A DNA stretch of 64,000 nucleotides from Natrialba magadii ATCC 43099. Its GTDB lineage: Archaea > Halobacteriota > Halobacteria > Halobacteriales > Natrialbaceae. Numbering within the stretch: the stretch's first letter is position 1; the number at the start of each line of letters is the position of its first letter. Under the pieces are notes generated by a model, which saw only the letters and a program-made list of their open reading frames with translations, did no database searches and was not told the DNA's origin. Shown here in pieces: positions 50,025 to 61,213 of the stretch. The stretch is from the NCBI RefSeq assembly GCF_000025625.1, contig NC_013922.1:1302001-1366000 (forward strand), in the 5' to 3' direction. A program made the position numbers and the translations under genes.

Positions 50025-51431
50025 CTACTGCGTGGTAGACGACGGGGTGGCGTCGTTGGCGGTCGATTCGGTGTCCGTTTCAGCACCCGAGTCTGATCCT
50101 GACGTCATCGTGTTACGTCCGTTCGTTTCGTCGACCCACTCGAGTGTGTCTTTGGCTTTGGCTTCGGCTTTGTCTTTGTCTTCGTTTCCGTTTCCGCCTC
50201 CGTCTTCGTCTTCGTCTCTGTCTCCGCTGCCGTGTTCCTCTTGTACCTGCGCCTGTCCCTGTCCCAGTTCCTGCACCTGTTGTGTCTGTTCCCGTCCCCG
50301 ATCCTGCATCCGATCCAGCCCTCGCTCACCGTCCACAGCCAGTACTCCAGCACGCGGCGGCTCGAACACGTACACCACGTCTGACCCCCGAACAAGATAC
50401 CATCCCGTCCGCTCGTCGAACACCAGCGGCGACTCGAGATCGATCGCGAGGTCGGCGAGTGTCGCGAGCGTCTCGACTGCCGCCGTCGGCCCTGTGACTG
50501 CTTCGTCGGGCAGCGTTACTCGCGTCGTCATCGGTTCGAACTCCGCGCGTGCATCGAGGTACTCGAGCCGGGTCTGATCCTCGGGCGTCAGTTCCGGGAG
50601 GCGACGCGAAGCGAGAGCCGTCCCAGCAAGACCGGCGAGTCCGAGAGCGATCAGAAGTGGTCCGCCAGCAGCCTGCGTCGTACTCGGCTCCGCTGGTACA
50701 GTAACCGGCTCGTACTCGTCGTGGCGCTCGGCATAGGCGCCCGTCTCAGCGTCGGTCTCGAACTGATACGTCGAGCCGTCGGCTGCGACTGCAACCGGCA
50801 CCTGATAGTGGTCGACGACTACCTGGGGGGTGCCGTCGAACGTCCCCTCGATTTCACGCTCGAACACGAGCACGAGTTCGGCCTCGCCGGGCGTTGCCCC
50901 CATCTCGTCGCGGATGGACTCGAGTGTCAGCTGTGCGTCGGTAACGTTCAATTCGAACGAAGCGGTGACATCGTCATCCGGGCCAACATCTGCTTCGGAG
51001 ACGCTCGTGAGCTGTTCGCGTTCGCTCCAGTAGATCCCGTCATCCGTAGCTGTCTCGCTGGTTCCGCTCTCGGAGCCACCGCCAGTCGTTTCTCGATAGA
51101 CGAGATCGACGGTGACCGTCACGTCAACATCCGTTGCGGTCGTTTCCGGTGCGGGGTCGTAGCCGGCTGTGAACGCCCCCGTCGCAGTTGGTGTCACGGC
51201 GGTGTAGTACAGGGGCTCGTCGGTGAGCTCTACACCCTCGTCGTGGACCGTCGTGGCTTCCTCGACGACTGCGGTGTGGCTGATCTCGCCGGTCGCCGTC
51301 CAGTCCGTCACGAGTTGCTGTTCAGTTTCGGCCCCCGGTGCTGCGTACGCGCCGTAGCTCAGCCAGATTCCAATCCCAAGCAAGACGACGGCCACGAGGT
51401 AGAGCACCACGCGATACTCCCAGATTGACAT
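50025..51431 (-). CDS. DUF5305-type membrane protein, N-terminus rebuilt by IS insertion
   Basis: A 468-residue protein: N-terminal membrane anchor (YRVVLYLVAVVLLGIGIWLSYGAY, about 5-28), a long extracellular beta-rich region (about 35-215), a second membrane helix (AAGGPLLIALGLAGLAGTAL, about 222-241), and a cytosolic region ending in a charged repeat-rich tail. The ATG at 51431 lies inside the right end of the IS element; the next codons leave the IS at TCAA (51425). So the native first codons are gone. It is part of the surface-protein cluster and downstream of the signal peptidase gene. Confidence 0.8.
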   Translation of the reverse strand: MSIWEYRVVLYLVAVVLLGIGIWLSYGAYAAPGAETEQQLVTDWTATGEISHTAVVEEATTVHDEGVELTDEPLYYTAVTPTATGAFTAGYDPAPETTATDVDVTVTVDLVYRETTGGGSESGTSETATDDGIYWSEREQLTSVSEADVGPDDDVTASFELNVTDAQLTLESIRDEMGATPGEAELVLVFEREIEGTFDGTPQVVVDHYQVPVAVAADGSTYQFETDAETGAYAERHDEYEPVTVPAEPSTTQAAGGPLLIALGLAGLAGTALASRRLPELTPEDQTRLEYLDARAEFEPMTTRVTLPDEAVTGPTAAVETLATLADLAIDLESPLVFDERTGWYLVRGSDVVYVFEPPRAGVLAVDGERGLDRMQDRGREQTQQVQELGQGQAQVQEEHGSGDRDEDEDGGGNGNEDKDKAEAKAKDTLEWVDETNGRNTMTSGSDSGAETDTESTANDATPSSTTQ

Positions 51432-51560
51432 CCTCCTCCGCGTGAACACGGAGGAATCCCACGGCACCGCACCGCTGGATTGGGATATTAGGGTTTGCAG
51501 TCTACCACTTGTTCTCTCGGTGAGAATCCGTGAGACAAGTCATGAAGGTAGACTCCAGGC
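51425..51560 (-). ncRNA. Candidate TnpB guide RNA (omega/reRNA) region
   Basis: In IS605-superfamily elements the guide RNA overlaps the 3' end of tnpB and ends with the right end, the guide itself being the flanking DNA. Here that would be minus-strand sequence from about 51560 to 51425, with guide bases from the start of the DUF5305 gene. Position is inferred from the family; only the hairpin and TCAA are seen directly. Confidence 0.45.
51434..51455. repeat. Right-end hairpin of the IS element
   Basis: TCCTCC...GGAGGA with inner GTG/CAC pairing (a bulge of GC on one arm). Subterminal hairpins of this kind are recognised by TnpA in IS200/IS605 elements and form the end of the TnpB guide RNA scaffold. 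Confidence 0.65.
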
Positions 51561-52801
51561 TGTGCCAACCAGCCGGTACTCCTATCCTCGCCCAAACTGG
51601 CCGAAGACTCGGAGTTACTTTGGTTCAGGTCGAGACGGATGTTCTCCGCCCCGTTCACATCAGCGTTGAACGCTGCATCACACTTCTCGCATACGTACAG
51701 GCCGCGTTCAACACGCTGACTATCATCTTCTCTACCGCAGACACAACACGTCTTGCTCGTGTCGCGTTCGGACACGTCCACGACCTCGATTCCCTCGACT
51801 TTCGCCTTGTACGTGAGGATGTTGCTGAAGCGGTCGAACGCCCATCCGTGTAAGTCGAGGTTGCCGTGCTTGCCCCAGTTTTTCGACTCACCATCGTTGT
51901 CTTCACGGACCCCCTCCAAGTCCCCGACGTTGATGCGGCCAACATCTTTCTCGACACACCGCTGGACGATGTGTTTGGCGAGACTGTGAAAGAAGTGAGT
52001 GCGGCGCTCCGACCACTTGTGATGAAGCCGCGTGGCTTCGTCGCCACCAGAATTGTCGCAGTTGGCAATTTCTTTCGGGAAGTAGTACCCGTCTTGTTTC
52101 AGGCGGTTGCCGGGATAGAGGTCGGCGTCTTCGGTGCTGTACGCGACCGCCGCGAAGTTGCTGATGCCGAGATCGATGCCCGCCGTTTCGGTGCCGGGAG
52201 CGCCAGGAGTCTCGATCTCGTCTTTGCAGACGAGATGCAGCTCCCACTGATCCTTCGCGTTATCGTAGACAGCACGAACCTGTTGTAGGTTCTCAACGGT
52301 GACGCCGGGGCGAGTTTCGTATTCGACAAGGATGTACTCCCATGCTTTCGGGTGTTCCTTGTGATTCGCGCCCTTCGAGAGCCGGACCCGGTTGTTTTTC
52401 GAGTCGTGTTTGATGCCGTTTTGCTTCCACGTCACCGTCGAACGTGGGTGTTCTTCGTGGACACGGCGGCCTTCGTCATCGTAGTAGTTTTTCTTGCGGT
52501 AGCCGGGCGGATTGTCCCTGCCATCGTCACTAGAGTACCACGAGTTGAAGGCTTCAGCGAGTTCCTCCAGAATCCGCTGACTGGACTGACTATGCAGCCC
52601 CTTGTACTTTGGATGGGTCTTCAACTCGTCTTTCAACTCCTCGTGGTTGGGGATCTCGCCTGTTTCCTCCCAGACGTCTCGGGAGTGGTAGTTGGCGACG
52701 TTCCAGAGTTTGCTGGCAGACCACCCATGCCAGTCAAGCGACTCTGCCACCTGTGAGTGGTTGCCTATTTTCGCTCGATGGGTGCGGTGGACCTCCAGCA
52801 T
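51488..52801 (-). CDS. tnpB: TnpB, RNA-guided endonuclease of IS1341 type
   Basis: A 437-residue TnpB. RuvC motif I is AGIDLGISNFAAV (about 220); motif II reads INVGDLEGVRED, with Gly in place of the usual Glu of EDL; motif III is NADVNGAENI. The zinc finger is CCVCGRE...YVCEKCD. The N-terminus MLEVHRTHRAKIGNHSQV is that of haloarchaeal members; an ATG seven codons earlier (52822) is also possible. TnpB cuts DNA guided by RNA from its own right end and helps the element persist. Confidence 0.92.
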   Translation of the reverse strand: MLEVHRTHRAKIGNHSQVAESLDWHGWSASKLWNVANYHSRDVWEETGEIPNHEELKDELKTHPKYKGLHSQSSQRILEELAEAFNSWYSSDDGRDNPPGYRKKNYYDDEGRRVHEEHPRSTVTWKQNGIKHDSKNNRVRLSKGANHKEHPKAWEYILVEYETRPGVTVENLQQVRAVYDNAKDQWELHLVCKDEIETPGAPGTETAGIDLGISNFAAVAYSTEDADLYPGNRLKQDGYYFPKEIANCDNSGGDEATRLHHKWSERRTHFFHSLAKHIVQRCVEKDVGRINVGDLEGVREDNDGESKNWGKHGNLDLHGWAFDRFSNILTYKAKVEGIEVVDVSERDTSKTCCVCGREDDSQRVERGLYVCEKCDAAFNADVNGAENIRLDLNQSNSESSASLGEDRSTGWLAQPGVYLHDLSHGFSPREQVVDCKP

Positions 52802-52924
52802 TCTGAACGTCTGTATAATCACTTATATTCGCTTGTCTTATAACTATTTGGTTTAAGGGCGGTGGAATATCCGGCCCTGCCATCGGCGGTGGGCTGTGGA
52901 GGGGTTGTCGGATTCATCCTGACC

Positions 52925-53941
52925 CTAAAGGGCCAGGTATTCTCCTCTGTTTTGTATAACTGACGCCGGCAGCACGTGTAGATACCGGTACTCCGTCACG
53001 TACGCCGGATAATAGCCCGTCTCGTCGGGTGCCGAAATCGCGACCTCGATCTCGCCCGTCGACTGCGGTCCGACCGCTTCCCGATTGGACTCGAGTGCCA
53101 CGTGCTCGCTCCCGGACTCGACGTAGGAAATGACCGGCACGTAGCCAGCGTTCGGGAGTGGGTGTGTGAGTTCGTCGGTCGTGCCACGTTCGACGACCAG
53201 CGGCTGCTCTGAGTCGAAGTCGGCGCTGACGACGTTGTAGGAGTGTGTCCCAGCAGGGACGACCATCGCGGCCGTCGCACCGACGACGACGAGCAGAGCG
53301 AACCCGAGACAGAGGTATCGTGGATCGAGGTCGGGACTCGAGTCCGGCTGCGCGAGTGACGATTCGGCCTGCTGTGCGCTGCGTTCTCGGATCGTTTCGA
53401 CCACATAGAGACCGATCGAGAGCCCGAGTAGAACGAGTGCGAGCCCAGAGCTGTCGAGCAGCGATCGAATCCCGAGTGTCGTCGCGAGCCAGATCTGAAC
53501 GCGCTCGAGCGCCGATCCTGCAGTCATGATCGCGGTTCCGAGCGATGGAATCGTCACCGGCTCACCGCCGAGTTCCCACGCTGTTGCGACGATTTGTCCG
53601 TCCTGGACGGGCGGCTCACCGTTATCCTGGTCGGTGAACGGATTCGCATCACCCTGGGTCGTGTAGCCGTGGTCGGTTTCCTCCACGATCCGGTGTGTCG
53701 TGAGTTCGCCGTCTTCGATTTCCTCTGCTTCGAAGACGACGACATCGCCGGGTTCGGGGCTTCCGGTGAGCGCTGTGGGAACGGCGACGAACCCGTCTCC
53801 GGTGTCGATCGTTGGCTCCATACTCCCCGTTTCGACGAAGCCAAACAGGATGGGCTGGCCGAGTATCTGTCCCGCAACGAGCGCGACAAGGACGAGCACG
53901 ACACCCACCTGGACCGCGAGTTCGACAGCCTCCCGGCTCAT
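52925..53941 (-). CDS. Archaeal signal peptidase I, C-terminus probably clipped
   Basis: A 338-residue S26B signal peptidase. After the N-terminal membrane helix, catalytic Ser is in GSMEPTIDTGD (about 38) and His in THRIVEE (the archaeal Ser-His type), with QGDAN further on. Two more helices (LALVLLGLSIGLYVVE, LCLGFALLVVVGATAAMVVP) and an outer beta domain follow. The end VLPASVIQNRGEYLAL meets the IS left end; relatives that I know continue with further helices. It probably processes the DUF1102-type proteins encoded next to it. Confidence 0.85.
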   Translation of the reverse strand: MSREAVELAVQVGVVLVLVALVAGQILGQPILFGFVETGSMEPTIDTGDGFVAVPTALTGSPEPGDVVVFEAEEIEDGELTTHRIVEETDHGYTTQGDANPFTDQDNGEPPVQDGQIVATAWELGGEPVTIPSLGTAIMTAGSALERVQIWLATTLGIRSLLDSSGLALVLLGLSIGLYVVETIRERSAQQAESSLAQPDSSPDLDPRYLCLGFALLVVVGATAAMVVPAGTHSYNVVSADFDSEQPLVVERGTTDELTHPLPNAGYVPVISYVESGSEHVALESNREAVGPQSTGEIEVAISAPDETGYYPAYVTEYRYLHVLPASVIQNRGEYLAL

Positions 53942-53965
53942 TGTCTGTACGGTAGCGCCAACTCT

Positions 53966-53977
53966 ACAGTATATTGA
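53966..53977 (-). promoter_or_regulatory. TATA-like box of the signal peptidase gene
   Basis: TTCAATATACTG on the minus strand, about 30 bp before ATG 53941: fits a leaderless promoter giving the peptidase gene its own start besides any read-through from upstream. Confidence 0.5.
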
Positions 53978-54080
53978 ACTTTTGGCCGAACGTGACTATC
54001 AGCTGAGTTGATACCCGATTCGATCATCTGTCTGCCAACAGGGCTGGCCAGGTCCAATCGCGCAGTAGACGGACACGTGT

Positions 54081-55739
54081 TCATGCGCGCTGCCCCCGAA
54101 AGAGGAAAACCGCGAGTGCGAATGCGACACCGACCACCACAACCACAGCAGGACCGGTTCCAAAGACGAACGGGGTCGAGTCCGCTCCACTCGACGGTGT
54201 ACCATCATCGCTTCTCTCGTCGCGATTCACGGTAGAGTCCGACGCAGATCCGTCATCGCTCCCCGCTACTGCCGTATCGATAGCCCCCTCGTCGACCAGA
54301 AACGCACTCTCGTGAGGCGTGTACGCGTAGCTGAGTTCGACCGCCTCTGCCGACTCCGCAATCTCGACCGTAACGTCGGTCGACTCGTGTGGCCCGACCA
54401 CCACGTCCCGGTCTGCGACGCGCTCGCCGTCTGCAACGAACTCGAGTGCCACGTCCGCTGCAACTGTGTCCCGATTGCTGATCGTCGTGTCGACGAGCAC
54501 TGACTCGTTCTGGGTCGCGTTCGGTTCCGTAGCGGTCAACGGCTCGACGGTCACTCGCGGCGCGTCGACGGCGATGGCGGTCAGCACCGGCTCTCCGTGG
54601 ACGACGCCCTCGATATCGTCAGTGTCTGTGTTGTCGGCACCGATCACGGGGTCGGAATCGGAATCGGAATCAGAGTCGAAGCCGAAGTCGAGGTCGGTGT
54701 CAAGGTCGAGCTCACGTTCACGCCACTCAGTGCCGTCGTACTGGTAGGCCGAGAGTGCTGTCGCATCGAGTTTTGCCTGTTCCAGCCACGCGCGATCGAT
54801 TGTAACCGTCTGCGTGGTCGAACGTGATTCAACAGCGTCGTCCGCCAGTCCGATGACGGTATAGCTCCCGACCGGAACAGCACCAGTTTCGCGGTGGAGT
54901 TCCGTGACGGGACCGACCGGTGACTTCGACCCCGCCGACTGTTCGCTCGGCGCGACGACCTCGAACTCGACCGTCCGCTCCTGGGAAAATTCAGCTCCCA
55001 TGGACTCGAGTACCATTGCATCACCGATCGGCAGCGACTGGAGTGGAATCTGCTCCGGTGTGCAGGTCTGTGTCTCCATCACTGACACCGCTCGCTCCGC
55101 AAGCGATGGTGAATCGACGGTAACCGATGCTGGCTGACACTGTGGCCCCGATTCCGGCAGTGGACTCGGCACAGCAGAACTCTCGGCGTCGTCCGCATCG
55201 TCCGACTCGCCTGTATCAGCAGGACCGACCGCGTTTACCGCAACCGTCCCCTCCAGTGAGTCGCCCGCAGTAAGCCCTTCTCTATCGATCGTAACCCCGA
55301 CCGAAACCGACTCGTTCGGCCCGAGAACCTCCGCCTCGGATTCGTTCTCGATCGGCCCCGCAACAGTGTGGTACTCGAGTTCATCGAGATCGTTCTCGAG
55401 CCACACCGAGGCCTGTTCGGAGCCAGTGTACGTGATCGTGAACACGTCCTGGATTTCGCTGACCGCACTCGACGAGAGTCCGCCGGCGTTCTCGATGGCT
55501 TCGTCCGTGAACTCGAGGGCGAGCGTCTCCGCTTCGACGGACGTGTAGACGCCGTTCGGCCCGTCGTGGGGTGCGAGAACGATGTCGTCGCCAACGTCGT
55601 CTTGCTGGTGGGTTGACCCGGAATCAAAACGGTCGCTCACGGTGTCCGCTGGGAGGGGAACCGCCCCGGTTCCGACGGCGGACGCTGTGAGCAGGAGGGC
55701 AACGACTGCGATGAGGTGGGTGGTGCGCAATCGGTTCAT
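54081..55739 (-). CDS. Large secreted, membrane-anchored protein related to DUF1102 proteins
   Basis: A 552-residue protein. Signal peptide MNRLRTTHLIAVVALLLTASAVGTGA; an N-terminal domain (about 50-170) with LSSSAVSEIQDVFTITYTG, which parallels AVTRIEEAFTIRYQG of the DUF1102-type protein at 58169; further beta domains, one with CARDB-like VEPLTATEPNATQNESVLVDTTISNRDTVAA; an SDSDSDSD tract near 350; and a C-terminal helix (GPAVVVVVGVAFALAVFLFRG) with RA after it. It looks like a cell-wall-spanning anchor of the cluster. Confidence 0.78.
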   Translation of the reverse strand: MNRLRTTHLIAVVALLLTASAVGTGAVPLPADTVSDRFDSGSTHQQDDVGDDIVLAPHDGPNGVYTSVEAETLALEFTDEAIENAGGLSSSAVSEIQDVFTITYTGSEQASVWLENDLDELEYHTVAGPIENESEAEVLGPNESVSVGVTIDREGLTAGDSLEGTVAVNAVGPADTGESDDADDAESSAVPSPLPESGPQCQPASVTVDSPSLAERAVSVMETQTCTPEQIPLQSLPIGDAMVLESMGAEFSQERTVEFEVVAPSEQSAGSKSPVGPVTELHRETGAVPVGSYTVIGLADDAVESRSTTQTVTIDRAWLEQAKLDATALSAYQYDGTEWRERELDLDTDLDFGFDSDSDSDSDPVIGADNTDTDDIEGVVHGEPVLTAIAVDAPRVTVEPLTATEPNATQNESVLVDTTISNRDTVAADVALEFVADGERVADRDVVVGPHESTDVTVEIAESAEAVELSYAYTPHESAFLVDEGAIDTAVAGSDDGSASDSTVNRDERSDDGTPSSGADSTPFVFGTGPAVVVVVGVAFALAVFLFRGQRA

Positions 55740-55742
55740 CGG

Positions 55743-55860
55743 TGGTTGGTAGTTGATGGTCGGTAGTTGGTGGTCGGTAGTTGATGGTCGGTAGTTGGTG
55801 GTCGGTAGTTGGTGGTCGGTAGTTGGTGGGTGGTGATCGGTTGCCGGTGATCGGTTGCCG
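55743..55860. repeat. 14-bp tandem repeats
   Basis: Units GGTAGTTGATGGTC / GGTAGTTGGTGGTC repeat about six times from 55747, followed by two copies of GGTGATCGGTTGCC (about 55831-55858). All share a 14-bp step. They fill the gap between the 552- and 128-residue genes, starting directly before ATG 55739 on the minus strand. Confidence 0.9.
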
Positions 55861-55938
55861 GAACTACGGATTCTCGAGTTCGATCCTCTGCGTTCCGTTC
55901 TCGCCTACGTACGGGCCGTGGCTGTTGCTGTCACGATC

Positions 55939-56325
55939 TCACTGATCTGACTGCTGCCTCGACTGTGTCGTACCGTCTGTGTTGGAGGCCACACGCACCC
56001 ACAGTTTGACCTCCGAGACGAGCGCGTGATCCTGCTGGTAGCCGTCGATGTCGTAATCGACCGTGATGTAGGTGATTTCGCGTTCCTCGACGACGTACGT
56101 CGTCTCGGTGGACTCCTCGCGGTAGCTAACGGCGTTCGTCTCGAAGTCGCCCTCCGCCTCTGCTTCGACGAAGGTGATTCGGTCGTCGACGTTGGGGATC
56201 GCGATCGACCTCGCGTCGTAGATCGCGTCGACGAGTTCGCCGCTTTCGCGCTCGTAGACGTAGAGGGAGATTTGATCGGTGTCTGTACCTGGACTCGAAT
56301 GTGCGTGTTCGTGCGTGGATGTCAT
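55939..56325 (-). CDS. 128-residue protein of unknown function in the surface cluster
   Basis: An acidic cytosolic-looking protein (no signal or helix): MTSTHEHAHSSPGTDTDQISLYVYERESGELV, then DDRITFVEAEAEGDFETNAVSYREESTETTYVVEEREITYITVDYDIDGY, alternating in a way that suggests a beta sandwich. No family recognised. It is preceded at 141 bp by the shared ATTACAATA element and followed by the 552-residue gene, which puts it in the same regulon. Confidence 0.68.
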   Translation of the reverse strand: MTSTHEHAHSSPGTDTDQISLYVYERESGELVDAIYDARSIAIPNVDDRITFVEAEAEGDFETNAVSYREESTETTYVVEEREITYITVDYDIDGYQQDHALVSEVKLWVRVASNTDGTTQSRQQSDQ

Positions 56326-56465
56326 TTGGCGAGGTCTCGTGTGTCCGCAGAACGGGCCTGGTTCATTGCGGCAACGTGTCTCGGTAAGCGAGAGAGGGCG
56401 AAACTGCAACCGCTGTATTGGACTATTCGCGCGACTATCACAACGAAACCAGCAGTCCCCACCTG

Positions 56466-56475
56466 TATTGTAATA
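56466..56475 (-). promoter_or_regulatory. Shared promoter element, copy 1
   Basis: TATTACAATA on the minus strand, 141 bp before ATG 56325. The same decamer occurs before two further genes of the cluster at nearly equal distance. It can serve as TATA box with a leader of about 110 bases or as an activator site. Confidence 0.65.
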
Positions 56476-56525
56476 TGATTATTGACGGCCGAAGGACAGT
56501 ATTCAATCCTGAACTTCCTTCTTTG

Positions 56526-56551
56526 GGTCAAAGTATAGGTCATTTTGACCT
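56526..56551. promoter_or_regulatory. Nested inverted repeats upstream of copy 1
   Basis: AGGTCA-TTT-TGACCT (56537-56551, exact) overlaps GGTCAAA (56526-56532) / TTTGACC (56544-56550). Candidate operator about 55 bp upstream of the ATTACAATA element. Confidence 0.4.
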
Positions 56552-56724
56552 GTCGCTGTTGCTGGAAATCGAAGGTTTTGGCTGCTGGTTACGTCTTCAT
56601 CAACCACAGAGAAAACACAATCCGTAGTGACATGTGGATAGTAGTGACTGAACGATTCTCGATAAATACGTGAGGTTGTGTGGGGGCCGTGTTGGCCGTC
56701 GGAAAGAAGCTGTCCGTGGTAGCG

Positions 56725-57276
56725 CTACGCTGTTTCGGTCGCGTTACCGACAATCGTTAGCGTGTCTTCAACGGTCGTTCCGGGATCAACATCTGCGGAG
56801 TCGATGAACACGCCTGCATCGAAGTCTTCGCCGGGCTCGAGTTCGATTCCACGGTCCTTGTTCGTCAGTAGGGACCGCTCGTCGTGATCGCTATCATACA
56901 GCGCGATGTCACCGAGCTCACCCGAGAACTCGCTATAGACGACGACGGGGTCAGTTCCCTGATTTCGAACTTCGACTAGCCGGTCGAAGTAGTACTCAGA
57001 GTTTGTTCCGAGGCCGTCTCCTCGAATCACATCACCCTCGCTCGCTCCTGGGAAACTGAATTTAGTTCGATATCCCGGGTTTCGGGATCGTTCGAGAACG
57101 TCTCCCTCTTCGTTTTCAGTTGGGAGAGCGTTTAATCCGAGATATGCTCTCTCGTCAGTCTCGATGTCAACCGAGATTTCTCGGTCAACTCGGCTCGTAT
57201 TGAACGCACCACTACTAACTACCAGTGAACCGCTTGCTGCGCCCGTAACGAGACCGAGGAAATTACGTCGTTTCAT
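56725..57276 (-). CDS. DUF1102-type exported surface protein
   Basis: A 183-residue protein with Tat-type signal MKRRNFLGLVTGAASGSLVVSSGAF, then the shared block SGAFNTSRVDREISVDIETDERAYLGLNAL. The mature part is beta-rich, with a late VRNQGTDPVVVYSEFSGELGDI. It lies 51 bp after the next DUF1102 gene, probably one transcript. Function is unknown; the fold may be TasA/camelysin-like, but this is inference. ATG 57276 is chosen for its position before KRR. Confidence 0.8.
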   Translation of the reverse strand: MKRRNFLGLVTGAASGSLVVSSGAFNTSRVDREISVDIETDERAYLGLNALPTENEEGDVLERSRNPGYRTKFSFPGASEGDVIRGDGLGTNSEYYFDRLVEVRNQGTDPVVVYSEFSGELGDIALYDSDHDERSLLTNKDRGIELEPGEDFDAGVFIDSADVDPGTTVEDTLTIVGNATETA

Positions 57277-57327
57277 TTGTATCACCTTGCGGCTACACGG
57301 GCTGAAAACCGTGTTCCGCAAACGGGC

Positions 57328-57891
57328 TTAGTTCGTTGCCTCAGCGTAGACGCCGAGCGTTTCTGGAAGGTCGTCTGGTTCCCCTTCAGTTTCAGCGTCT
57401 CGGCCAACGAACTCGAAGTGGACGTAGACCTCGTCACCAGGGGCGATGGTCGCTCCATCGGCAGCTGTTCCACCGGTGAAGTCACCGTCGCCGTTGACAT
57501 CGTTGCTGGTGCCGATTTCCTCGAACGAGTAATAGGCGCGTGGGTACTCTGTCTCCCACTCAATGGAATCAAGGGATTCCGAGAGAGTGACGGAAATGTC
57601 GTCTGTTCCGTTGTTACGAATCGCGAACACGTCCGTGAAAACGTAGTTTGCGTTCTCGCTCAGCCCTTGGCCGCCTTCTCCGTTCGACCCGAAGTCGATC
57701 TTGAATTCTCCGTCGTCTTCCGTCGAATAGGCACTAGTTGCTTCGAGGCCAAGGTAGGCGTTACTGTCCTCGACGATGTCGACGGTTACTTCTCTGTCTG
57801 CTCGGGCGACGTTAAACGCGCCAGTGCCCATCGCCGCAGCTGCTCCTGATGCCAGTGCTCCCATTCCGATTACGAATTTGCGTCGTTGCAT
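57328..57891 (-). CDS. DUF1102-type exported surface protein
   Basis: A 187-residue paralogue: Tat-type signal MQRRKFVIGMGALASGAAAAMGTGAF, then NVARADREVTVDIVEDSNAYLGLEATSAY. Further on, NYVFTDVFAIRNNGTDDISVTLSESLDSIEWE matches the FTIxxxG core of its relatives, ending with YVHFEFVGRDAE...LGVYAEATN. Preceded by the ATTACAATA element at 127 bp. The ATG at 57891 is the only one directly before the twin-arginine motif. Confidence 0.82.
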   Translation of the reverse strand: MQRRKFVIGMGALASGAAAAMGTGAFNVARADREVTVDIVEDSNAYLGLEATSAYSTEDDGEFKIDFGSNGEGGQGLSENANYVFTDVFAIRNNGTDDISVTLSESLDSIEWETEYPRAYYSFEEIGTSNDVNGDGDFTGGTAADGATIAPGDEVYVHFEFVGRDAETEGEPDDLPETLGVYAEATN

Positions 57892-58017
57892 TGTTGGATT
57901 CTCCGTGTGTTGTCGCCTGCACGTCGTCACCGGCGGACACCGCGTCCACCCCGACACCGGTCGCCACCGCCGCAATCCCCATCGAGGGATCACAATTCGT
58001 CCATCGGGAACACCGGA

Positions 58018-58027
58018 TATTGTAATA
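58018..58027 (-). promoter_or_regulatory. Shared promoter element, copy 2
   Basis: TATTACAATA on the minus strand, 127 bp before ATG 57891, in the 277-bp gap that otherwise holds no gene. Confidence 0.65.
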
Positions 58028-58168
58028 TATTCGTAGACTAGCTTCTGAGAAGAATTGAGTTTAGTCAACGGACCCAAGAGAACGGACTCGAGACAGTATC
58101 GGACGAGTTGAGAACACACTCGACCAGTAAACAGCAGATAGACCACCCCTCAATCAGTCATCTCTCGG

Positions 58169-58768
58169 TCAGATATCGAGGACGTCGAACGGATCAGCAG
58201 CCGCCTCGAACGAAATCTGATCGAGAAGGAGCCCCGACCCGCCGTCTTCGAGCACCGTCGTATCCAGGACGATATCGACGGCTGCCGCTTCGCCCGGCCC
58301 GAACGACGCGGCTCGCCCCGGCACAGTCAGATCGCTCTGCCCGCCATTCGGCCACGCTTCCGTCGGAACGAACTGAACGACGTCCTCTGGGAGCGCCTCG
58401 GTTACGTCTTCTCCGTCGTTGAAGAGCCGTGTATTGACCGCACCCTGATCGCCTGGACCTGAGCCGTTCGTTCCCTGATAGCGGATCGTGAACGCCTCTT
58501 CGATCCGTGTCACGGCGTTTGGGTTGACTCCCTCGCCAGCGGTAACGCTGTCATCGAGTCGCACACGAAACTGGCCGTCGGCGTCCTGATCGACGAATTC
58601 CGTTGTGTTGTCGGTCGCATCCAGAGCGAGATAGGCCGTGGAATCGTCTGCGACGGTTATCGCGACCGATCTGTCCGCTTCCACACTCGAGAACGCGCCT
58701 GTTCCCATTGCCGCGCCGATTCCAGAGACCGCTGCGCCCAGTCCGATGATGAATTTGCGTCGGTGCAT
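58169..58768 (-). CDS. DUF1102-type exported surface protein
   Basis: A 199-residue paralogue: signal MHRRKFIIGLGAAVSGIGAAMGTGAF, then SSVEADRSVAITVADDSTAYLALDATDN; a beta core with NPNAVTRIEEAFTIRYQGTN; a C-terminal strand LDQISFEAAADPFDVLDI. No cysteines are seen in the mature part. It is transcribed separately from the copy downstream, each having its own ATTACAATA element (132 bp here). Confidence 0.82.
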   Translation of the reverse strand: MHRRKFIIGLGAAVSGIGAAMGTGAFSSVEADRSVAITVADDSTAYLALDATDNTTEFVDQDADGQFRVRLDDSVTAGEGVNPNAVTRIEEAFTIRYQGTNGSGPGDQGAVNTRLFNDGEDVTEALPEDVVQFVPTEAWPNGGQSDLTVPGRAASFGPGEAAAVDIVLDTTVLEDGGSGLLLDQISFEAAADPFDVLDI

Positions 58769-58899
58769 TGGTAGGTTTCGTATCTGTGGTCGTCGTCGTG
58801 GTCGTGGTCAGCACGAAATCATCGCCTGCGACGTGAATTCCTGCCTCTCACGGCATATCATTGAAACGCCCAGTAGGTGTGGAGGTAGCGTTCGGTTAT

Positions 58900-58909
58900 T
58901 ATTGTAATA
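58900..58909 (-). promoter_or_regulatory. Shared promoter element, copy 3
   Basis: TATTACAATA on the minus strand, 132 bp before ATG 58768. Confidence 0.65.
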
Positions 58910-59100
58910 CGTTCATAGTCGCCCTTCCATTCGATGTTTCGGTTGTTCAGGGTGAGCCAGACCACTGAACTGGGTGGGAAACGGACACCCGAGAGTAGTC
59001 ACGTCAGCTCTGCTCAGATGGCTACAGCAGCCACCCCATCCCACCAACCAACTTAACTGATCACTCAAAGCAACGTATTAACCGAAATCGACAAAATCAG

Positions 59101-59136
59101 CCAAACCAGCCAAACCAGCCAAATTAGCCAAACCAC
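59101..59136. repeat. 9-bp tandem repeat
   Basis: Four consecutive units CCAAACCAG, CCAAACCAG, CCAAATTAG, CCAAACCAC in the long divergent spacer. Confidence 0.85.
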
Positions 59137-59365
59137 CTCCGAAACCACTCGCAAGGCACGATACAATCAATCGCTGAGTGTCGTATTGAGGCAATTGACT
59201 CCACAACGCCAGCAGTAACACAGCGGTTGACACGCACAGGCTCACCAATACCACCTCTTATTCAACCGTTCCGAAGCGAAAATTGGCGATAACGCCCGGA
59301 ATAGCCGCTTTGAAGCCACATAGGAGGAGTGGTAATAGCCAATTTTATTTCAAAAAGGCTGAACG

Positions 59366-59383
59366 ATAGATAGTTTTATCTAT
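59366..59383. promoter_or_regulatory. Palindrome over the regulator's TATA box
   Basis: ATAGATA-GTTT-TATCTAT: perfect 7-bp arms with a 4-base spacer. The centre (59374) is about 32 bp before ATG 59406, where the TATA box is expected (TTTTATCTATA). A dimeric regulator bound here would block TBP, so it is a good candidate for auto-repression. Confidence 0.6.
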
Positions 59384-59405
59384 AGAAGTGTTGACCCACC
59401 AACCG

Positions 59406-60023
59406 ATGCGGGGGACTGGAATTGATCATGCGCAGGAGGTACATGTCTCGCAATCGGGTCAAGAGAGGCTCACTGAGGACGAACTCTTCGAATTACTGTC
59501 GAACCGGCGACGGCGACACATCCTACACACACTCATCAACGAAACCGAACAGGTCGATATCGGAACACTCTCACAGGAAATCGCTGCCGAGGAAGACGAG
59601 CTCGCGTTCGACGAAGTCTCGAGTAGCGACCGAAAACGCGTCTACACTGCACTCCAGCAATCACACCTCCCAAAGATGGACAACGCGGGTGTTCTCGAGT
59701 TCGACCGTGATCGCGGCACTGTCGAGGCGACGCCGGCACTCGAGGACATCGAGATCTACATGGATGTCGTTCGCGGGCGCGAGATTCCCTGGAGCGACTA
59801 CTATCTCGGCTTGACGGGGATCATCGCCGTCGTACTCGGCGGCGCAACCCTGAGTGTCGGACCGTTTGCACTCCTCCCACTATCCGCGTGGGTCGCGTTT
59901 GCGATCGTTGCGCTTGCTGTCTCAGCGCTTTCGCACCGATACTACGCGCGACAGAATCGGCTGGGGATCGGCTCGTCACCACCAGCATCGAGCACCGAAC
60001 TCGAGTACGAGGAGTCAGCGTAA
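59406..60023 (+). CDS. Membrane-tethered HTH regulator (DUF7344-type)
   Basis: A 205-residue protein. The wHTH has LTEDELFELLSNRRRRHILHTLINE (about 22-46) and SSDRKRVYTALQQSHLPKMDNAGVLEFDRDRGTV. Two membrane helices follow (LGLTGIIAVVLGGATLSVGPFALL and SAWVAFAIVALAVSALSH, about 135-180) and a short polar tail. Such proteins can sense the cell surface from the membrane. ATG 59406 is preferred to GTG 59388, which would lie too close to the TATA box. Likely controller of the surface cluster. Confidence 0.83.
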   Translation: MRGTGIDHAQEVHVSQSGQERLTEDELFELLSNRRRRHILHTLINETEQVDIGTLSQEIAAEEDELAFDEVSSSDRKRVYTALQQSHLPKMDNAGVLEFDRDRGTVEATPALEDIEIYMDVVRGREIPWSDYYLGLTGIIAVVLGGATLSVGPFALLPLSAWVAFAIVALAVSALSHRYYARQNRLGIGSSPPASSTELEYEESA

Positions 60024-60100
60024 GCGTCGATCATGAACGAAACGGGACCGACGAACGGCACCAGGAGTTCGTTCGAGCGGGCTGGAGGTCGATCGAACCG

Positions 60101-61213
60101 ATGAAACGGACACGACGCGCTGCGCTTGCGCTGGTCGCCGGTTCGAGCAGCCTGCTCGCAGTCGAGACGCTCGGGTACTCGAGTAGCAGCGTGGATCGGT
60201 CGTTCACCGCCGACGTCGTCGATGACGAGCGGGCGTATCTGGGTCTCGATGAGGAGAGCCCGAACGACGGACAGTTGTTCGATAGCTCGCGAGAGGCACC
60301 GGCAGCGTTCGACGTTGTGAATCAGTTTACGGTATCGATCGAGGTTGCGGTTGCATTCGAGAGCGACGGAGGAAGCGAGAACGAGGGCGCCCACCCAACA
60401 GACAGCAACAGACCCGACCTTCGGGTTGGCACCATCGAGGACGGCGAGTTCACACCGGGAGTTCACGCGTCACTCACACCAGGAGCGCAACAGTCCAGAC
60501 TCGCCGTCGACCTGAACCCCTGTGGAATCAGTCACGGCGAACTCGCTGCCGAGCGGTCCGGAACGCTCATCATTACCGCCAAGAACGATGCCAGCGACGC
60601 AGACGGATCGGAAGCGATGGCGACGGTGTCCCGATCGTTCGTACTCGAGTCGAATCTGCTCGCGCGAATCGGCGTCCCGTGGTCAGATGCGGTTGCGGTG
60701 GTTCGAGCGGAGTCCGGCGCCGAACTGGTAGTCGAAGTCGTCGACTGTCCGAGCGGGGAAACGAGGACTCGTCTCGAGACAGGACTGGACTTCCCAGCGA
60801 TCCTCCGGTTGATTCCGGAGCGACACGACAACTCGAGTGCACGACGGGAGCAGCGAGACCTCACTGTCGATTCGATCGATGAAATCGAGGCGACGGTTGA
60901 ACAGTCGACGCCAAACGGTGAGCCCAAAAATGGGGGCAATGGATCGGGAGAGAATTCTGGAAACGGTCAAAGAGACACATCTGAGAACAATTCAGATGAT
61001 AGGACGGGGAGTGGACCCTCGAGTACGTCCGGTGACGGAGACGACGGAAATACTGAACCTGCCGAAGACAACGTAACCGACGAAGCAACGAGACAACCAA
61101 CCCAGGACAACGAGCCATACGTCGAGGTCACACCAAAATCGATTGCGCCGAATGAGTCTGACGCTGACGTTCCCGTCAAAACGATTCGGGTTCCGTTCCC
61201 GGCGACTGACTGA
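60101..61213 (+). CDS. Long DUF1102-type exported protein
   Basis: A 370-residue relative: MKRTRRAALALVAGSSSLLAVETLGY (weak twin-arginine signal), then SSSSVDRSFTADVVDDERAYLGLDEE, the block shared with the three smaller paralogues. A beta domain with NQFTVSIEVAVAFE continues to about 255; after that come an Asn/Gly/Ser/Asp-rich linker and a short conserved-looking end. It follows the regulator by 77 bp on the same strand and is probably co-transcribed. It may be a cap or adhesion subunit. Confidence 0.75.
   Translation: MKRTRRAALALVAGSSSLLAVETLGYSSSSVDRSFTADVVDDERAYLGLDEESPNDGQLFDSSREAPAAFDVVNQFTVSIEVAVAFESDGGSENEGAHPTDSNRPDLRVGTIEDGEFTPGVHASLTPGAQQSRLAVDLNPCGISHGELAAERSGTLIITAKNDASDADGSEAMATVSRSFVLESNLLARIGVPWSDAVAVVRAESGAELVVEVVDCPSGETRTRLETGLDFPAILRLIPERHDNSSARREQRDLTVDSIDEIEATVEQSTPNGEPKNGGNGSGENSGNGQRDTSENNSDDRTGSGPSSTSGDGDDGNTEPAEDNVTDEATRQPTQDNEPYVEVTPKSIAPNESDADVPVKTIRVPFPATD

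Follow-up and report, generated by a model that had tools for sequence, protein, structure and literature searches.

What kind of surface structure might be built by a group of genes for secreted proteins that is accompanied by its own signal peptidase? Such a group is found in the 64,000 nucleotides analysed here (the window), segment C1:1302001-1366000 of a 4.44 Mb haloarchaeal genome, and its nearest named relatives are those of Natrialba hulunbeirensis and Natrialba sp. SSL1. The original prediction, made from the sequence of the window, was of a processed, perhaps fibre-forming, surface polymer. This reading is supported by sequence comparison and structural modelling, and a nearer known relative, which the prediction had not named, can be given: the tafi, described in PMC12687288, citing Galeva et al. 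(2025, iScience 28:111793), as thin surface filaments exported through the twin-arginine (Tat) pathway, with TafA as the core component. The locus is very probably a Tat-fimbria (tafi)-type cassette, the fibre subunits of which would be exported by Tat and processed by the S26 peptidase. The tafi system itself is already known, and the window cassette is a divergent, uncharacterised Natrialbaceae lineage of it.

The minus-strand genes are transcribed in the order T3, T2, T1, P128, P552, S26 and DUF5305; divergent from these, on the plus strand, the DUF7344 helix-turn-helix (HTH) gene is followed by T4 (Table 1). All of the named genes are present at these coordinates and are recovered when genes are called by codon usage, in which they are distinctive. 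The identities originally given to the S26 peptidase, the DUF5305 protein and the HTH protein with its two hydrophobic C-terminal segments are borne out by Pfam, NCBIfam and the sequences themselves. P128 was found in just four of the sampled cassettes, those of the window, two Natrialba and one Natrinema; between it and P552, short direct repeats, ggtcggtagttg, were seen by eye at 55755-55840 of the window.

Table 1. Genes and sequence elements of the cassette, in window coordinates
Feature	Position	Strand	Basis
DUF5305 membrane protein	50025..51467	-	PF17231 E 3e-42; near S26 in 62/65 loci
TnpB (IS200/IS605 type), inserted between the S26 and DUF5305 genes; extraneous to the system	51488..52822	-	NF040570 189.8 bits
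S26 (ER/archaeal-type) signal peptidase, C-terminus truncated	52925..53941	-	TIGR02228 above cut-off; SipW 40.4 bits
P552, protein in TafF position: DUF1102-like N-domain, PGF-pre-PGF, CARDB-like domains, C-terminal transmembrane segment	54081..55739	-	Profile comparisons, domains of orthologues
P128, small protein without signal, 128 aa	55939..56325	-	No Pfam or NCBIfam match
TATTACAATA element, 150 bp before P128	56466..56475	-	
T1, putative Tat-exported fimbrial subunit, DUF1102, 183 aa	56725..57276	-	DUF1102 above cut-off; mature-only profile E 7e-29
T2, putative Tat-exported fimbrial subunit, DUF1102, 187 aa	57328..57891	-	DUF1102 above cut-off; 9P0A E 6e-10
TATTACAATA element, 136 bp before T2	58018..58027	-	
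T3, putative Tat-exported fimbrial subunit, TafE/TafA-like, 199 aa	58169..58768	-	RR signal MHRRKFIIGLG; TafE 68.7 bits, TafA 39.6; 9P0A E 2.4e-14 alone; predicted fold Z 9.2 to Tafi pilus
TATTACAATA element, 141 bp before T3	58900..58909	-	
DUF7344 winged-HTH protein with two hydrophobic segments at the C-terminus; transcribed divergently from T3 and upstream of T4	59406..60023	+	PF24035 E 1.5e-27
T4, putative TafC-like Tat-exported minor subunit, long acidic tail, 370 aa	60101..61213	+	TafC 30.6 bits (cut-off 410); profile comparisons

The gene content is that of the tafi. Named taf loci, in which TafA, TafC, TafE and TafF score above their curated cut-offs, have TafF, TafE, TafA, a DUF7344 HTH, TafC, S26 and DUF5305 as neighbours in varying order, and the window holds a matching list, with T1-T3 standing for TafA/E, T4 for TafC and P552 for TafF alongside the S26, DUF5305 and HTH genes. 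Recurrence in other genomes, by which the original prediction was to be judged, is pronounced: among 65 well-flanked loci, a Tat-exported subunit and DUF5305 each occur in 62 and an HTH of the DUF7344 family in 60. Similarly, in 31 family genomes, a TafE-like gene is found no further than 9 kb from 51 of the 54 S26 peptidases of the cassette type and from none of 40 other signal peptidases (Fisher 2e-23, from genomes that are not independent), an association on which a general housekeeping role for the peptidase is rejected and which supports the earlier proposal that the system has a dedicated one. In a tree of S26 sequences, the window peptidase groups in a clade of Natrialbaceae (97/92) that is distinct from those of the named taf loci (100/96) and of the J7-2-type loci (100/98); on the evidence of the peptidase, the cassette represents a third lineage, that of the Natrialbaceae. 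It further differs from the known tafi in having three tandem subunits, the additional P128 and an upstream element of its own. A viral or plasmid origin of the cassette was also considered and set aside, with no phage match and only six haloarchaeal plasmid records.

Whether this particular copy still works is a separate matter. The cluster contains a TnpB gene that had previously been missed and is absent in the two Natrialba relatives; homology to these ends at position 52965 of the window and restarts at 51424, with approximately 404 bp of their sequence missing and TnpB in its place. The insertion and associated deletion have cost S26 its last ~67 residues, including the C-terminal membrane segment, with the catalytic domain being retained, and DUF5305 ~62 residues of its N-terminus relative to N. 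hulunbeirensis. As S26 has lost this segment, the window copy may be impaired, or may rely on peptidases from the genome's three other S26 cassettes (L006, L046, which is of J7-2 type, and L047), whose S26 genes are not truncated. That the cassette has decayed to the point of being non-functional in this strain would be compatible with its identity as a tafi cassette, and is a serious though unlikely possibility; set against the damage, every other gene is open and codon-typical, intact S26 genes are available elsewhere in the genome, and the truncated peptidase retains the invariant residues S40, H83, D98 and D104, of which Ser40 and His83 are catalytic.

The subunits bear on the identity of the cassette. 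T1-T4 had been predicted to carry export signals, the nature of which went unrecognised: all four open with twin-arginine signals (MKRRNFLG, MQRRKFVIG, MHRRKFIIG and MKRTRRAALAL), as expected of members of the tafi system. Against the tafi reading, the signal of P552 resembles a Sec signal. The predicted common pattern following the signal is also present, in the form of [GS]-x-G-A-F (L-G-Y in T4), five to seven residues, D-R and then D-x-x-A-Y-L-x-L. Among 96 aligned relatives the only invariant residues are R3, R4, A25, F26 and R33, and [GS]AF occurs within the first 60 residues of 144 of 200 family members, compared with two among the 95 other proteins with Tat signals at these loci. The likeness is not attributable to the Tat signal alone, as a profile of the mature proteins, constructed with the signal removed and the sequences of the window left out, still matches T2 (E 3e-34), T1 (7e-29), T3 (1e-27) and the N-terminal domain of P552 (6e-18). 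This last match, along with a C-terminal transmembrane segment, agrees with the earlier description of P552 as a larger protein that shares the core and adds a membrane anchor. The mature part of T4 is linked to the subunit family by profile-profile comparison (96%, E 2e-9, with column-shuffled controls at 0.1%), and its full profile scores 97.9% against the same family. T2, with an N-terminus (MQRRKFVIGMGALASG) that is near-identical among relatives, is the best-conserved subunit of the cassette lineage. T1 and T2 exceed the gathering cut-off of 22.2 for DUF1102 (PF06510), at 25.4 and 35.2 respectively, and the Pfam search gave no match to this family for T3 or T4; a literature search returned no open paper on DUF1102. 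Because iterated searches merged all of the subfamilies, T1-T3 are not assigned as either major or adapter subunits.

The connection of these subunits to the tafi was made through both sequence and fold. A profile of T1-T3 relatives matches PDB entry 9P0A, the pilin listed in the structure search as 'Structure of Natrinema sp. J7-2 Tafi pilus', with an E value of 9e-42. The same entry is the best fold match of the moderately confident T3 model (pLDDT 74, with residues 5-30 under 50), at Z 9.2 and 3.5 Å over 132 residues. It is followed by the AbpA bundling pili of Pyrobaculum calidifontis (PDB 7UEG; Z 8.0 over 127 residues, with 9% identity over the aligned residues) and the Saci_0406 threads of Sulfolobus acidocaldarius (PDB 7PNB; Z 7.6, 6% identity over the aligned residues), both donor-strand filaments; in the threads, the N-terminal donor strand follows cleavage by signal peptidase I (PMC9715654), and export is by Sec. 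These two likenesses are suggestive only, because the fourth match already stands at Z 6.9, and the tafi match is additionally backed by sequence homology. The comparison with solved folds that the original prediction had proposed as its own check consequently fell in its favour, with the Natrinema Tafi pilus, bundling pili and threads as the best solved matches of T3.

The curated families point in the same direction at lower scores. The NCBIfam pointers are TafE, TafA and TafC, all under their equivalog cut-offs (for instance, TafE for T3 at 68.7 bits against 155, and TafC for T4 at 30.6 against 410), and P552 has no TafF match in the NCBIfam search; as they score below the curated cut-offs for TafA, TafC, TafE and TafF, T1-T4 and P552 are not filed as those orthologues. 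These low scores count against the tafi reading, although the Tafi pilin of solved structure has a close homologue, in locus L061, that likewise scores under the TafA cut-off, at 55 of 190 bits. By profile comparison, T4 scores 97.8% against TafC, and P552 matches both the subunits (E 8e-27) and TafF (E 1e-21). Among 38 orthologues of P552, 22 match DUF1102, 26 CARDB and 18 PGF-pre-PGF. Its AF2 model has domains and a helix at 530-551; fold searching with the whole model is dominated by CARDB-like Ig domains, and gives little information on the N-terminal domain.

These data also bear on whether the T proteins might be Tat-exported beta-sandwich proteins of the surface or S-layer that do not polymerise, such as monomeric adhesins or ligand-binding proteins. 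Beta-sandwich folds are common, many unrelated structures being found at Z 5-7 in the T3 search, and the CARDB and PGF-pre-PGF domains of P552 are typical of surface proteins. However, each of the top three structural matches is a donor-strand filament, there is strong sequence homology to a pilus of known structure and the N-terminal donor segment is conserved, making a non-polymerising role very unlikely.

The original prediction also drew a parallel with bacterial TasA/TapA/SipW operons and archaeal bundling pili. The latter part is in keeping with the AbpA fold match, although the closest system is the tafi. As to the former, a dedicated ER-type signal peptidase adjoins the fibre subunits in Bacillus too, and the mature N-terminal segment of TasA, with an F near its start, is the donor strand (residues 28-38, using F29; PMC9674648). 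Yet there is no family-level sequence match: no Pfam or NCBIfam match to TasA or camelysin was found for T1-T4 or P552 at E<=0.1, and S26 scores 40.4 bits against the SipW (NF046067) cut-off of 190. TasA is absent among the fold matches listed, which is no evidence against a likeness. That the cassette is the direct archaeal counterpart of this operon, with the T proteins as TasA, P552 as TapA and S26 as SipW, is extremely improbable, since the SipW match, the resemblance to TasA around the cut site and donor strand and the pairing of one peptidase with its substrates are outweighed by the SipW score lying far under its cut-off, the lack of a TasA or camelysin match, export by Tat rather than Sec and the closer homology to tafi. 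A likeness in mechanism may exist all the same, without implying common membership.

As a tafi cassette, the locus can be given a putative assembly pathway. The T1-T4 precursors would be exported by Tat on account of their twin-arginine signals, and the cassette S26 would cut after the conserved G-A and before F, so that the mature protein would start F-x-x-x-x-x-x-R. By comparison with solved relatives, this N-terminal segment would act as a donor strand, supplying what the beta-sandwich of the following subunit lacks, and such complementation would generate a thin head-to-tail fibre. In the 9P0A pilin, 188 of 215 residues are modelled and the numbering runs to 215; these counts, as distinct from deposited text, fit a mature start at F28 in GTGA/FSSVEADR (the slash marking the cut). 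In the T3 model, the low confidence of residues 5-30, a stretch spanning the cut site and the start of the mature protein, agrees weakly with a strand lacking its partner. T2 and T3 are likely to be fibre subunits, as perhaps is T1. Going by position and domains, from which we also infer the roles of DUF5305 and the HTH protein, the TafC-like T4 would be a minor subunit, perhaps located at the end, and the TafF-like P552, which has a C-terminal membrane anchor, would probably either initiate the fibre or tether it to the membrane or S-layer.

Co-regulation of the cassette, as originally proposed, gains support from an upstream element common to T3, T2 and P128. The window contains exactly three copies of the 10-mer TATTACAATA, where none are expected by chance, and all lie in the cassette; the element is cassette-specific, at a near-constant distance upstream of the genes and conserved across Natrialbaceae. 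Over 1.86 Mb of cassette loci there are 20 copies, 17 of which precede genes of this lineage, namely those for subunits, P128 or P552. A longer form, CACGNNYRTATTACAATAYCC, sought in 32 family genomes with two mismatches allowed, gave nine sites, once per genome, all of them directly upstream of a TafE-like gene by coordinates; a reversed control pattern gave two. The conserved TATTACAATA is a candidate for either a core promoter or an operator. The DUF7344 HTH protein probably regulates the cassette, perhaps through these elements, although its binding to them is a guess.

With the tafi reading, a previously unnamed cluster of DUF1102, DUF5305 and S26 would be tied to a fibre type of solved structure, giving a cut site that can be tested and a putative operator. 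A fuller interpretation, which is possible if doubtful, is that a distinct Natrialbaceae tafi lineage coexists with the J7-2 type in a single genome and has a SipW-like peptidase devoted to Tat substrates, the exact cut between GA and F freeing the donor strand and licensing polymerisation, with TATTACAATA serving as a cassette-specific operator read by the linked DUF7344 regulator. As four such cassettes of different lineages are found in one haloarchaeal genome, why a cell should keep several kinds of Tat-exported fibre is a question now open to experiment.

Relatives also occur in other settings. The same genome has a lone subunit gene of this family at C1:1646685-1647029 (L048:8181-9047); its product is extended at the C-terminus, and there is no peptidase gene in the vicinity. 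Beside a J7-2-type cassette, at L054:13543-17919, is a gene for a 1458-aa protein, MKSRVFMSLGLVFLLVAGVVLFGPTFGFSSFAADRGV, with a Sec-like leader and an F..DRG block, which is possibly a giant adhesin following the same export logic.
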